From Thalassotalea fonticola (GTDB taxonomy: Bacteria; Pseudomonadota; Gammaproteobacteria; Enterobacterales; Alteromonadaceae), in contig NZ_CP136600.1 of NCBI RefSeq assembly GCF_032911225.1, positions 4,278,001-4,342,000 on the forward strand: DNA of 64,000 nt, read 5' to 3'. Below, piece by piece: positions 11,080-38,794 of this stretch. The notes below the pieces were generated by a model that did not search any database, had not been told where the DNA came from, and saw only the letters and a list, made by a program, of their open reading frames with translations. Each line of letters opens with the position of its first letter. Position 1 is the first letter of the stretch. The position numbers and the translations under genes were made by a program.

Positions 11080-11264
11080 TGTCCCTAGAAATAGGGTTAC
11101 ATCAGAAGAGGAGCGTTAACCAGGTAGTTATCTTTAGGGGCCTTTACCCCGAAAATAGATAATGAGGGGGATTAACGCCGAGGCATAAGTGAAAAAGGTA
11201 ACACTTATGTCGGACGAATGGGTTGAATCCCTTCGGCTGTCACTTAACGGCACATAAATGTTTA
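11080..11264 (+). ncRNA. Lysine riboswitch (L box)
   Basis: The conserved lysine aptamer blocks appear in order: CAGAAGAGGAGCGTTAACCA (11104-11123), a variable stem, GAGGGGGATTAACGCCGAGG (11164-11183), a CATAAGTG/CACTTATG stem, then GGGTTGAATCCCTTCGGCTG with GTCAC (to about 11263). These correspond closely to the E. coli lysC leader blocks. The aptamer lies 140 bases upstream of a dapA-type gene on the same strand, so lysine is expected to reduce its expression. The expression platform (about 11290-11350, with GAGAG/CTCTC and TTGCACA/TGTGTAA pairings) is not a textbook terminator, so control may be translational or through RNA decay. Confidence 0.93.
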
Positions 11265-11401
11265 CTACAACAGTAGATAATTTTGGTTTAAGTGGAGAGC
11301 TTCTGGTATTTGCACATTACTTGTGTAAATTCCTCTCTTCCTTTCTCTAAAACGCTTAACGATTAAATTAATAATAGGTATTTCCATATTATTAAGAAGT
11401 A

Positions 11402-12328
11402 ATGAGATTTAACATGACAACTTTTCAACTTAATGATTTTGCTCTTTGGACTGCACTTGTTACCCCCTTTGACCAAAACGGTAGCGTCGATTATAACTGC
11501 TTGGCAAAAATTGTGGACGATCAGCAACAAGCTGGTAATGGTATTTTAATTTGCGGCAGTACCGGCGAAGGTTTAGCTCTTAAGCAAGAAGAGCAATTAA
11601 ATATTGTAAAATTCATTTGTGATTTAAAACCAACGGTGCCTTTAATGGTCGCAGTTGGCGCTTTTGATCTTCCTGCTCAAATAGCTTGGATTGAAGCGTG
11701 TAATGAATTGCCGGTGCACAGCTATTTATTAACCGCACCAATTTATGCCAAACCAGGTGTTATTGGTCAAACTCAATGGTTTTCAGCGTTGCTTGATGCG
11801 GCAAAACAGCCTTGTATGTTATACAACGTGCCTTCTCGTGCAGGTATTAGTATTCCAGCTCAAACCGTTAAAAATTTATCAGAACATGAAAATTTATGGG
11901 CGATGAAAGAAGCCAGCGGTGATATAAACGAATTTCTTGCTTTTGCGGGCGCTGCGCCAAACATGAAAATGTTTTCTGGCGAAGATACACTTATCCCTTA
12001 TTTAGCCGCTGTTGGTGCTGTTGGCTTAGTATCGGTATGTGCCAATGCATGGCCAGAAGCCACTAATTTGTATGTACAAAAATCTTTAGCCGGCGAAGGT
12101 ACTGATCTGGTTCCTGTTTGGAATAGCGCTATCTCATCATTGTTTGATGTAGCTAACCCTATTCCTGTAAAAGTGTTAATGCATAAACAAGCGGTGTTAA
12201 ACACCCCTGTTTTACGTGCACCTTTAACTCATCTTGAACTCGAATCAGATAAAGCAATACTAGCAGCTGATTCTGCTATTACAGAATGGTTATGTCAAAG
12301 CCGTACTCATTTACGTATCGTTAAGTAA
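11402..12328 (+). CDS. dapA: 4-hydroxy-tetrahydrodipicolinate synthase family protein (DapA)
   Basis: A class I aldolase of the DapA/NanA superfamily. DapA condenses pyruvate with aspartate semialdehyde in the first committed step of lysine and diaminopimelate synthesis. Visible active-site features are GSTGE (52-56), Y141 in YNVPSRAG with R146, and the Schiff-base lysine K169 in WAMKEASGD. The lysine riboswitch upstream supports a role in lysine synthesis over sialate or other aldolase functions. The ATG at 11402 has AAGAAG close in front; ATG 11414, behind a weak GAG, is an alternative start. A strong hairpin follows the stop. Confidence 0.88.
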   Translation: MRFNMTTFQLNDFALWTALVTPFDQNGSVDYNCLAKIVDDQQQAGNGILICGSTGEGLALKQEEQLNIVKFICDLKPTVPLMVAVGAFDLPAQIAWIEACNELPVHSYLLTAPIYAKPGVIGQTQWFSALLDAAKQPCMLYNVPSRAGISIPAQTVKNLSEHENLWAMKEASGDINEFLAFAGAAPNMKMFSGEDTLIPYLAAVGAVGLVSVCANAWPEATNLYVQKSLAGEGTDLVPVWNSAISSLFDVANPIPVKVLMHKQAVLNTPVLRAPLTHLELESDKAILAADSAITEWLCQSRTHLRIVK

Positions 12329-23524: not shown

Positions 23525-23672
23525 TATACGACATCAGAAAAAATACTCCGTCATCCCCCACGAGCGTAGCGAGATGAGGGATCTCCAGCCGAGTATCGTG
23601 CTTTGGAAGTGTATTTTTTTAAACCACAGTTTGCATCAGGAGATCCCACCCAAAAGCACGGTGGGATGACGG
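23525..23672. repeat. Palindromic intergenic element with terminal inverted repeats (no gene inside)
   Basis: The outer inverted repeats CCGTCATCCC (23548-23557) and GGGATGACGG (23663-23672) are perfect, and a nested pair GGGATCTCC (23578-23586) and GGAGATCCC (23639-23647) is also perfect. The whole can fold into a long cruciform or hairpin. The 5' part matches 13790-13856 and 38379-38409. The 3' part matches 34170-34219 and 38702-38750. It lies between the convergent znuB-like and S1-domain genes and may also end both transcripts. Confidence 0.85.
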
Positions 23673-34020: not shown

Positions 34021-34261
34021 AGTAGAAAAAGTACATCGTCATATAAAAGAAGAAGTCCTTAAGTAATGTTGTTACTTAAGGAGTAAGCTAGAGTGAGAAG
34101 AAGAGGCTATTAAAAAGACAAATCCTGAATGGAAGGACTTGTATTAGGAGCTACTTTAATTCTGTTTTAGTCACAGTTTACGTCAGGAGAACCCACCCAA
34201 AAGCACGGTAGGGTGGCGGCGCTCTTTTATTAATTTTGTGGGGCTGCAATTCGCTCAAAAC
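34021..34261 (+). repeat. Dispersed element enclosing a GIY-YIG remnant (copy at 34.1 kb)
   Basis: The left part (AGAAAAAGTACATCGTCATA, 34024-34043) resembles the left ends at 23525 and 38379. From about 34105 to 34261 the sequence closely matches 38636-38794, including CAGGAGAACCCACCCAAAAG and GGCTGCAATTCGCTCAAA. The middle is a decayed gene end (34109-34159). The usual right-end ATGACGG is degraded here to GTGGCGG. Confidence 0.8.
34109..34159 (+). pseudogene. Remnant of a URI/GIY-YIG nuclease gene (C-terminus only)
   Basis: The frame reads IKKTNPEWKDLY-stop-ELL-stop. IK-x-TNPEW-x-DLY is the characteristic C-terminus of small solitary GIY-YIG endonucleases (COG2827/UPF0213 type, about 90 residues). 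A CAG-to-TAG change explains the early stop. The catalytic N-terminus is gone. The same C-terminus occurs at 38640-38690. Confidence 0.7.
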
Positions 34262-38378: not shown

Positions 38379-38794
38379 CTATACTACATTTGAAAAAATA
38401 CTCCGTCATATAAAGGGGAGTGTCTTTATAAAATTATCGAATAAGTACACCGTCCTCCCACTATTTTTAAAGTGACTTTGTAAATACATTAAACCAATAG
38501 CTACATTTTTCATCTACACTTTAGTTTCAAGTATTGAAAAGGACTTCGATCATGAAACAACCAACCATATATATTCCTTCCAACGATTCAAATACTGTTA
38601 TTTATGTTAGTGTTCCTAGCCACCTGGACAGAAAGACCGATTAAAAGGACAAATTCTGAATGGCAGGACTTGTCTCAGGAACTACTTTAATTCAGTTTTA
38701 GTCACAGTTTGCTTCAGGAGAATCCAGCCAAAAACATGGTGGGATGACGGCGCTCTTTTACTAATTATGTGCGGCTGCAATTCGCTCAAACCGC
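38379..38794 (+). repeat. Dispersed element enclosing a GIY-YIG remnant (copy at 38.4 kb)
   Basis: The left end GAAAAAATACTCCGTCAT (38392-38409) is identical to part of the copy at 23538. The right side carries GGGATGACGG (38741-38750), identical to the right inverted repeat at 23663. CCGTCAT (38403-38409) and ATGACGG (38744-38750) form 7-bp terminal inverted repeats. Between them lies a broken GIY-YIG gene (38552-38690). From 38636 to 38794 it matches 34105-34261. The rest of 38211-38969 shows only this element and the mdh terminator. Confidence 0.82.
38552..38690 (+). pseudogene. Remnant of a URI/GIY-YIG nuclease gene (N- and C-termini, middle deleted)
   Basis: An ATG with AAGGA 8 bases upstream opens a 30-codon frame, MKQPTIYIPSNDSNTVIYVS, then VPSHLDRKTD and TAA (38642). 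This resembles the catalytic start of COG2827 GIY-YIG nucleases (MKQP-x-[IV]YIL-x-x-x-x-x-x-x-LY[IV]G[VI]TS-x-L). In the next frame, from 38640, IKRTNSEWQDLSQELL-stop is the family C-terminus. About 45 central residues are deleted with a frameshift. The first GIY motif survives partly (IYI) and the second is degraded (IYVS). Confidence 0.72.

Follow-up and report, generated by a model that had tools for sequence, protein, structure and literature searches.

Decayed GIY-YIG nuclease genes between CGTC-type REP hairpins in Thalassotalea fonticola: probable dead members of a mobile unit found in many bacterial phyla

The window analysed here is a 64,000-nucleotide stretch of the Thalassotalea fonticola genome (contig NZ_CP136600.1) that holds three related palindromic segments, called copies 1, 2 and 3. 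Copy 1 carries the remains of a small GIY-YIG nuclease gene on the plus strand. A ribosome-binding region (TTGAAAAGGACTTCGA, 38534-38549; TTGAAAAGGACTTC at 38534-38547), resembling the sequence that precedes the ATG of intact units, is followed by an N-terminal piece with its start codon at 38552 (MKQPTIYIPSNDSNTVIYVSVPSHL.., 38552-38644, ending at a stop) and by a C-terminal piece in another frame (WTERPIKRTNSEWQDLSQELL, 38625-38690), and by our own count about 50 internal codons are missing relative to the intact sister-species genes L116, L155 and L160, with which the N-terminal piece was compared. Both pieces of the broken gene described in the initial annotation, including their difference in frame, could thus be located from 38552 onward. 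The two 7-mers given there as its enclosing ends, CCGTCAT and ATGACGG, are likewise present (38403-38409 and 38744-38750, respectively), but the left one sits in a second REP-like hairpin (CGTCATATAAAG...CTTTATA, 38404-38431, plus strand), seen in the sequence and by a relaxed REP finder (stem of at least 6, at most one mismatch); a similar start occurs at copy 2 (34037) and in L013. Judged against intact units, the true left REP of copy 1 begins at the CGTC at 38451 and is decayed to CGTCCTCCCACTATTTTT; it occupies 38451-38479 on the plus strand (CGTCCTCCCACTATTTTTAAAGTG..), and its class-A counterpart, by eye, is CGTCATCCCACCATGTTTTTGGGTGGGAT. The right REP lies on the minus strand (CGTCATCCCACCATGTTTTTGGCTGGAT, 38722-38749) and matches 23625-23672 at the DNA level. 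The shared 7-mer ends are by themselves weak evidence, as CCGTCAT/ATGACGG occurs 8 times in the window against 3.75 expected, and as many were obtained in 2 of 100 shuffles.

Copy 2 retains only a C-terminal gene piece, as first described (34097-34159, plus strand; EEEAIKKTNPEWKDLY*ELL, with the inner stop at 34145), between a left CGTCAT (34037-34042, plus strand) and a decayed right REP (34190-34219, minus strand), and is 87% identical to copy 1 in DNA across 151 bases. Copy 3 has REP ends and no gene (23549-23671), again in agreement with the earlier description; its left REP-like hairpin (23549-23582, plus strand) has a stem unlike that of its right REP (CGTCATCCCACCGTGCTTTTGGGTGGGAT, 23643-23671, minus strand), which has a perfect 9-bp stem and is the sole strict CGTC REP of the window. 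At 123 bp tag to tag, copy 3 falls inside the 107-163 bp range of gene-less mini-units in sister genomes, though its stems differ. A whole-genome DNA search with 38379-38794 returned six matches, namely the query itself, copy 2, copy 3 (as two matches) and positions 3853889 and 4564350. An alignment with sister genomes yielded no empty site for the window copy, since synteny is lost at its left neighbour. Between the arms of copy 1 the inverted match scored 16.5, compared with a maximum of 20 in 500 shuffles, and is not beyond chance; the case therefore rests on relatives rather than on copy 1. Elsewhere in the window, a lysine riboswitch (RF00168, 89.5 bits) was found at 11098-11310 on the plus strand, ahead of an ORF at 11402-12328.

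All 15 genomes of the genus matched the family profile, some only with yhbQ-level genes or with fragments. Out of 38 genes from the genus, the finder placed a CGTC or TGTC REP on one or both sides of 32, and the other six were accompanied by other or longer imperfect hairpins (by eye). Most stems belonged to class A (ATCCCACC, that of the window), class B (ATTGCGGC) or class C (ATCCCGCA). Intact COG2827 genes between such ends, for which the initial annotation had asked, do occur: the window's REP type lies beside genes in six sister genomes, the class-A genes having a normal start and an open frame in G001, G003, G008 and G009, a shifted start in G007 and stops in G014. The intact relatives belong to the GIY-YIG superfamily (PF01541), the window copy itself being broken. 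In the window's own 4.90-Mb genome four PF01541 matches were found, consisting of a uvrC-sized frame, a yhbQ-like gene and two intact genes of about 95 aa (59.7 and 61.5 bits; cut-off 22.6). Each of these two small genes lies inside a palindrome array, with CGTCATACCCGA..TCGGGTATCCA-like palindromes around one and TTGCTGAAC..GTTTCAGCATCT and CCCTGAAATAAATTCAGGG around the other (by eye), and since the sequences differ between the two arrays, a general pairing with gene-specific palindromes is suggested. The own-genome locus L002/L106 (G000:C1:1789376-1789660) consists of an intact GIY-YIG gene in a dense CGTC palindrome array of another stem type, and several ORFs listed there extend across palindromes. 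A deeper GIY-YIG clade, made up of L128 (own genome), L117 (G004) and the tandem genes L118 and L130 (G002), is flanked by TTGCTGAAC..GTTTCAGCATCT and CCCTGAAATAAATTCAGGG, hairpins in which the CGTC tag has been lost or changed. For the small nucleases of the units NCBIfam contains no family at cut-off, and no phage record matched protein P0001. Three database proteins (P0035, P0061 and P0071) have extra ends that resemble translated REPs (DWIPAFAGMT, LDSRLRGNDG); ends of this kind are a possible marker of such units, and a source of misannotation.

The association was then quantified across bacteria. In one-genome-per-species contigs, queried with an alignment of 25 relatives, the best 80 of 587 relatives were taken (chosen by the pattern TLY[IV]GVT[SC][ND] and score), of which 73 had 150-bp flanks on both sides; many of the loci come from metagenome bins, and the titles cover Planctomycetes, Chloroflexi and Alpha-, Beta-, Gamma- and Deltaproteobacteria as well as one cyanobacterium and one candidate-phylum bacterium, among others. 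Among these best 80 of 587 relatives, a CGTC-type REP lay within 150 bp of 61 of the 73 genes, compared with 32 of 601 control ORFs from the same loci (Fisher p=2e-50); REPs were present on both sides in 31/73 and 6/601, and by the strict REP definition in 47/73 and 23/601, respectively, the controls being mechanical frames of at least 120 aa and not small genes, with only yhbQ size-matched. In a second, independent sample from 398 Pseudomonadota genomes, REPs were near 44 of 68 genes, against 0 of 29 yhbQ paralogues (29 of 30 loci, own genome excluded) and 11 of 162 control ORFs. This sample was composed of 29 of 30 automatic loci (own genome excluded) and 40 hand-picked ones (one from each genome, taken in approximate order of E-value with a few passed over), 68 of the 69 having flanks. 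Definitions D2 and D4 together missed 18 of the 68 genes, 15 of which have longer imperfect GTCA-tagged palindromes, while L244, L275 and L276 have hairpins or palindromes and no GTCA tag (all by eye). A relaxed REP was found within 200 bp in 16 of 17 title-picked loci, nearly all of them outside the Alpha-, Beta- and Gammaproteobacteria, the exception being L080. An energy-based tagged-hairpin finder was less specific (55/72 and 46/67 genes in the two samples, with 3/29 for yhbQ and 45/275 and 18/135 for control ORFs).

A comparison free of any REP definition was also made. The upstream flank matched the reverse complement of the gene's own downstream flank (score of at least 15) in 38 of 72 loci (from the best 80 of 587) and in 46 of 67, compared with 18/72 and 7/67 when flanks of other loci were used, 0/29 for yhbQ, and 11/596 and 5/156 for control ORFs (16/752). 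Direct-orientation matches were also frequent (29/72 and 36/67) because dimers and arrays occur. Where strict REPs stood on both sides, the 7-nt stem arm was identical in 36 of 42 loci, compared with a mean of 12.2 and a maximum of 19 over 1000 shuffles; REP orientation around the gene was mixed in these 42 loci (+/- 17, +/+ 12, -/+ 7, -/- 6), partly as a result of REP dimers flanking some genes. Intergenic palindromes are common and small orphan genes may fall among them by chance or composition, and 5-7% of control ORFs also lie near a CGTC-type REP; the enrichment over controls, the yhbQ result and the identity of left and right stems refute this as a general explanation, which we consider scarcely credible. 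The association of gene and REPs is almost certainly real: the two form one co-inherited unit in many phyla, the left and right REPs usually matching. Intact COG2827 genes that lack the flanks, named in the initial annotation as evidence that would refute its reading, were encountered only in the yhbQ-type subfamily, which presumably belongs to COG2827 and has a different C-terminus.

In a plasmid collection 33 records matched, and 12 loci were analysed together with seven empty-site or relative records (L140-L142 left out). REPs were marked by the finder beside the gene in seven of the 12, from Neisseria (dRS3-type), Azospirillum lipoferum 4B (REP dimers on both sides of the gene), Sinorhizobium meliloti, Shinella, Rhizobium CIAT894, Aeromonas and Neorhizobium. 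The other five had palindromes on at least one side by eye, in Novosphingobium and Sphingobium (CGTCG, CGTCAC), in Rhizobium K1/93 and Sinorhizobium K101 (CCTC-like), and in Planktothrix (TGTCATTCTGAG). The palindrome-flanked gene on the Planktothrix agardhii plasmid (L102) lies between an MmeI-type restriction gene and the DISARM gene drmA. Azospirillum lipoferum, Sinorhizobium meliloti, Novosphingobium aromaticivorans and Neisseria are all named in the 2013 survey of CGTC REPs, in the sections consulted (PMC3733652).

Evidence of mobility was clearest in the sister genome G007, where six copies of a class-B-type unit begin exactly 180 bp ahead of the ATG, at GTGCCATT, and five of the six end at CTTA(A/T)TCGCTC, the remaining one being cut at its right REP. 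Outside the unit, flanks gave background scores (8-12.5) in 14 of the 15 left-hand pairs and 9 of the 10 right-hand ones, and the exceptional pair on each side (35.5 and 38.5) shares another repeat. The five full units are 90.5-96.2% identical, their outer ends are imperfect inverted repeats by eye (GTGCCATTCAGAGACG vs GAGCGATTAAGAGCC), and no target-site duplication was obvious by eye in five G007 copies. The sharp boundaries sought in the initial annotation were therefore found, with mostly unrelated flanks, for these class-B-type units and not for the window's own class. Gene-less copies measured 107 bp tag to tag (three in G007) and 150-163 bp (three in G006), compared with 464-485 bp for full units; by eye, those of G006 retain parts of both inner arms, and those of G007 retain the left arm together with part of the right. 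The empty sites that had also been asked for were found at one locus: in Azospirillum lipoferum the unit lies between sufB and sufC, which are adjacent in three relatives that lack it, and since the junctions have diverged, the site is resolved at the level of the locus and not of the base. This small gene, intergenic and with a homologous site that is empty in relatives, would fit homing-type spread, in which an unoccupied allele, once cut by the nuclease, receives a copy of the unit through recombination between homologous flanks, as with free-standing GIY-YIG homing endonucleases; GIY-YIG nucleases are known homing enzymes (PMC1564403, in the part consulted). The six G007 copies, however, are not confined to homologous sites, and homing has no need of repeated palindromic ends and gene-less derivatives; we consider it very unlikely.

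Multiple copies with sharp ends at unrelated sites are seen in G007 and not in G001, a single-contig assembly in which the three units of class B are 98.8-99.6% identical to one another and the three of class A 96.6-97.2%, three of these six units having inner stops. The shared sequence of the G001 copies extends past the unit; these copies therefore do not prove independent insertion, and some of the units may have spread inside a larger repeat. Beside the G001 units L152-L157, tandem repeats of about 55 bp (TGCACGGATGCACTAATGCAGGAAGGCTCATGGATGAGCGTATTCTTTCTGTGACG) adjoin the class-A REPs. Spread inside a larger repeat is part of the main rival explanation, which is that the nuclease gene is a passenger moved by another enzyme, the units being mobilised in trans (by RAYT/Y1 or another transposase) or copied in larger repeats, and the gene being kept for DNA repair. 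Y1 transposase (PF01797) matches in 12 of the 15 genus genomes, including that of the window, would fit a passenger, yet G001, with its units, has no present Y1 match. RAYT mobilisation as the whole story was rejected, given that the flanked gene is GIY-YIG and given this genome. A repair function has been suggested before: it was conjectured for the three COG2827 genes of Caulobacter, of which one has an SOS box (PMC1839093, in part), and stand-alone prokaryotic GIY-YIG members were placed in the Slx1 cluster, with a repair prediction cited (PMC1564403, in the sections consulted). On the other hand, the same family recurs within palindromes in many phyla, unlike a chance passenger, and the consulted sections of the 2013 survey report no CGTC-flanked tyrosine transposase and regard links to other transposases as fortuitous (PMC3733652).

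REP classes and copy numbers were also compared with the presence of the gene. The protein tree sorts by REP class instead of by genome (7 changes, against a mean of 21.8 in 200 shuffles, none of which was as low), a co-segregation that is expected, since linkage alone gives it. Where a class-B gene was present (six genomes), class-B REPs numbered 6, 13, 26, 18, 13 and 3, and where it was absent (nine genomes) 0, 2, 0, 0, 0, 0, 1, 3 and 0 (p=7.6e-4); after subtraction of the ends of gene-bearing units by hand count, 0, 9, 8, 15, 9 and 0 remained, compared with 0-3 (p=0.03). The number of class-A REPs does not vary with the gene, whether any class-A gene is counted (p=0.06) or the intact ones alone (p=0.40), as a passenger would lead one to expect, and G006 contains 11 class-A REP copies with no class-A gene found. 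Among the 398 Pseudomonadota genomes, at least five exact CGTC-1 REPs were present in 21 of 102 gene-positive and 11 of 296 gene-negative genomes (p=7e-7), gene-positive meaning a profile E below about 1e-15, and the profile and REP-count sets being assumed to be the same 398; 1186 of 1466 CGTC-1 copies were in gene-positive genomes, but 1018 of these were in four genomes. One genome, G103, has 487 exact copies of one REP type. Eight genomes with at least 10 CGTC-1 REPs gave no profile match, and in a family search seven of them had only long uvrC-sized frames, with an added 105-aa frame in one of the seven, and one had no match, these eight being mostly drafts and four of them less than 90% complete. 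REP-rich genomes without a partner match, which offer natural test cases for how REPs persist when the enzyme is lacking, include G051 (69 exact CGTC-1 REPs), G352, G342, G067 and G179. The existence of REP-rich genomes that lack the gene, a point for the passenger, means that REPs either persist after the gene is gone, as in the window, or are moved by something else. By copy number, action in trans is supported weakly (class B) or not at all (class A). The mixed REP orientation, the lack of a visible target-site duplication, the locus-level resolution of the empty sites and the untagged hairpins of L117, L118, L128 and L130 also count against a unit moved by its own nuclease. We regard the passenger explanation as unlikely, and movement of the unit by its own nuclease as the preferred reading.

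The protein itself is conserved. In 145 proteins, Y18, H32, E65, K69 and R73 were invariant (145/145), R28 was present in 144/145 and Y7 in 143/143, and a C-terminal KxWxRxWK...NxxWxDL motif was nearly invariant; the own-genome yhbQ-like protein lacks this motif. We take the Tyr, Tyr, Arg and Glu of GIY-YIG proteins to be the catalytic residues (see also PMC1564403, in part). The profile matches PDB 1zg2 (YhbQ/UPF0213) at E=5e-4. Pooled pN/pS among the six G007 copies was 0.14, with differences mostly synonymous, and usable between-genome pairs gave 0.03-0.16, rough values, as most had dS >1 and three pairs had undefined dS. The pair L115/L149 (dN/dS 1.29) was set aside because the start of L149 is shifted and the frames are offset. 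The codon changes show purifying selection. In several units of the genus (among them window 38534-38549, L158, L109 and L106) an inverted repeat, TTGAAAAGGAnTTCAA, encloses the ribosome-binding site and might act as a translational switch for the nuclease. Purifying selection and the hint of regulated expression from this TTGAA..TTCAA repeat would both suit a host-serving pair, in which the nuclease processes REP cruciforms or REP-hairpin RNA, both partners are kept for regulation and the spread of copies is incidental; the distribution, however, is patchy (158 of 398 genomes with any match, many only at yhbQ level), and the broken copies in sister genomes and the multicopy units look selfish, which makes a host-serving role highly improbable.

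From these observations we infer, as the initial annotation had proposed, that the enzyme itself may cut or spread the palindromes. The three window copies would then probably be dead members of a mobile unit formed by a small GIY-YIG gene and bracketing hairpins of the CGTC REP superfamily and moved by its nuclease, and it is likewise probable that CGTC REPs owe their spread to the nuclease. The nuclease would recognise the hairpin that a REP extrudes when the DNA is single-stranded or supercoiled, and would nick it at the foot of the stem, at the CGTC tag; nicking could move or copy its own unit as well as gene-less REP dimers, and where the gene decays, as in the window, the REPs would stay as fossils. 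A hairpin substrate fits, because eukaryotic Slx1 cuts in a structure-specific manner (PMC1564403, in the part consulted). With less assurance, we lean towards the wider reading that the small solitary GIY-YIG enzymes make up a transposase class new to prokaryotes, in which every clade recognises its own CGTC-tagged hairpin, moves the bracketed gene and spreads gene-less dimers, and that they are the missing engine of CGTC REPs (dRS3, perhaps rickettsial RPE-4/6) in many phyla. With a nuclease of about 95 residues and a substrate hairpin of about 28 nt, the claim is directly testable.

If true, this would add a new enzyme class to bacterial mobile elements, and a nuclease fold to bacterial transposases. 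Di Nocera, De Gregorio and Rocco (2013) defined the GTAG and CGTC REP superfamilies, reported CGTC REPs in five phyla and left their mode of spread open, with no associated transposase and the suggestion that the enzyme was lost or generic (PMC3733652, in the sections consulted). A concrete candidate enzyme family can now be named for these REPs, one that would, if correct, settle how they spread, and an explanation offered for a widespread family annotated 'GIY-YIG nuclease' or guessed to act in repair (PMC1839093, in part). The text consulted contains no word starting with 'GIY' in PMC3733652, none starting with 'palindrom' in PMC1564403 (a 2006 GIY-YIG phylogenomic study), and none starting with 'nuclease' or 'transposase' in PMC12306157 (a 2025 REP tool paper). 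The initial annotation's impression that the pairing was undescribed held up in the open-licence literature (preprints and most subscription papers lying outside it), where no paper joining COG2827-type genes and REPs was found.

Several known systems resemble the units in part. IS200/IS605 elements are small, with hairpins at their ends and no evident target duplication. The units share these three properties with them, but are without a Y1 transposase, and in the G007 family have imperfect outer inverted ends (by eye). GIY-YIG homing endonucleases of the I-TevI type and Penelope-like elements also place a GIY-YIG nuclease in a selfish element, whereas no intron, NUMOD or reverse transcriptase was seen here, the sites are non-homologous and the ends are palindromic. 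Slx1-like stand-alone GIY-YIG proteins, including YhbQ/UPF0213 (PDB 1zg2), are equally minimal single-domain nucleases, in contrast with which yhbQ genes had no REP flanks by the finder (0/29). The GTAG REP/REPIN-RAYT (TnpA-REP) system likewise has short tagged palindromes, inverted dimers, an enzyme gene between the same palindromes and gene-less dimers. RAYT is an HUH (Y1) enzyme associated with a GTAG tag, however, whereas the flanked gene here is of the unrelated GIY-YIG fold, the tags are CGTC-type, and the sister-species units have defined outer ends beyond the REPs; the GIY-YIG nuclease might do for CGTC REPs what RAYT is thought to do for GTAG REPs. The palindromes of the window are CGTC-type and not of any of the four named families. 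The CGTC REP superfamily, which includes Neisseria dRS3 and Rickettsia RPE-4/RPE-6 (PMC3733652, in part), shares with the REPs found beside the gene across phyla a CGTC (or TGTC/CCTC) tag, AT-led stems of 8-9 bp, inverted dimers and, in most of those listed, a CCA tail. A tag of this kind at the stem foot is found in the right REP of copy 3 and in class-A, -B and -C units, and is decayed in copy 1; the class-A stem is AT-led with 9 bp and a 7-nt loop, and class B has a 4-nt loop and an 8-bp stem with the outermost pair mismatched (superfamily: AT-led, 8-9 bp, loop 4-5), while the CCA tail is lacking in window and genus class A, which mostly end in CTCC or CTTT. Among species of the CGTC survey, Azospirillum lipoferum, Sinorhizobium meliloti and Neisseria here carry the gene beside such REPs, and Novosphingobium aromaticivorans beside a CGTCG variant (by eye). 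CGTC REPs and GIY-YIG nucleases were already known separately; what differs here is their pairing, a specific small nuclease gene inside the palindromes.
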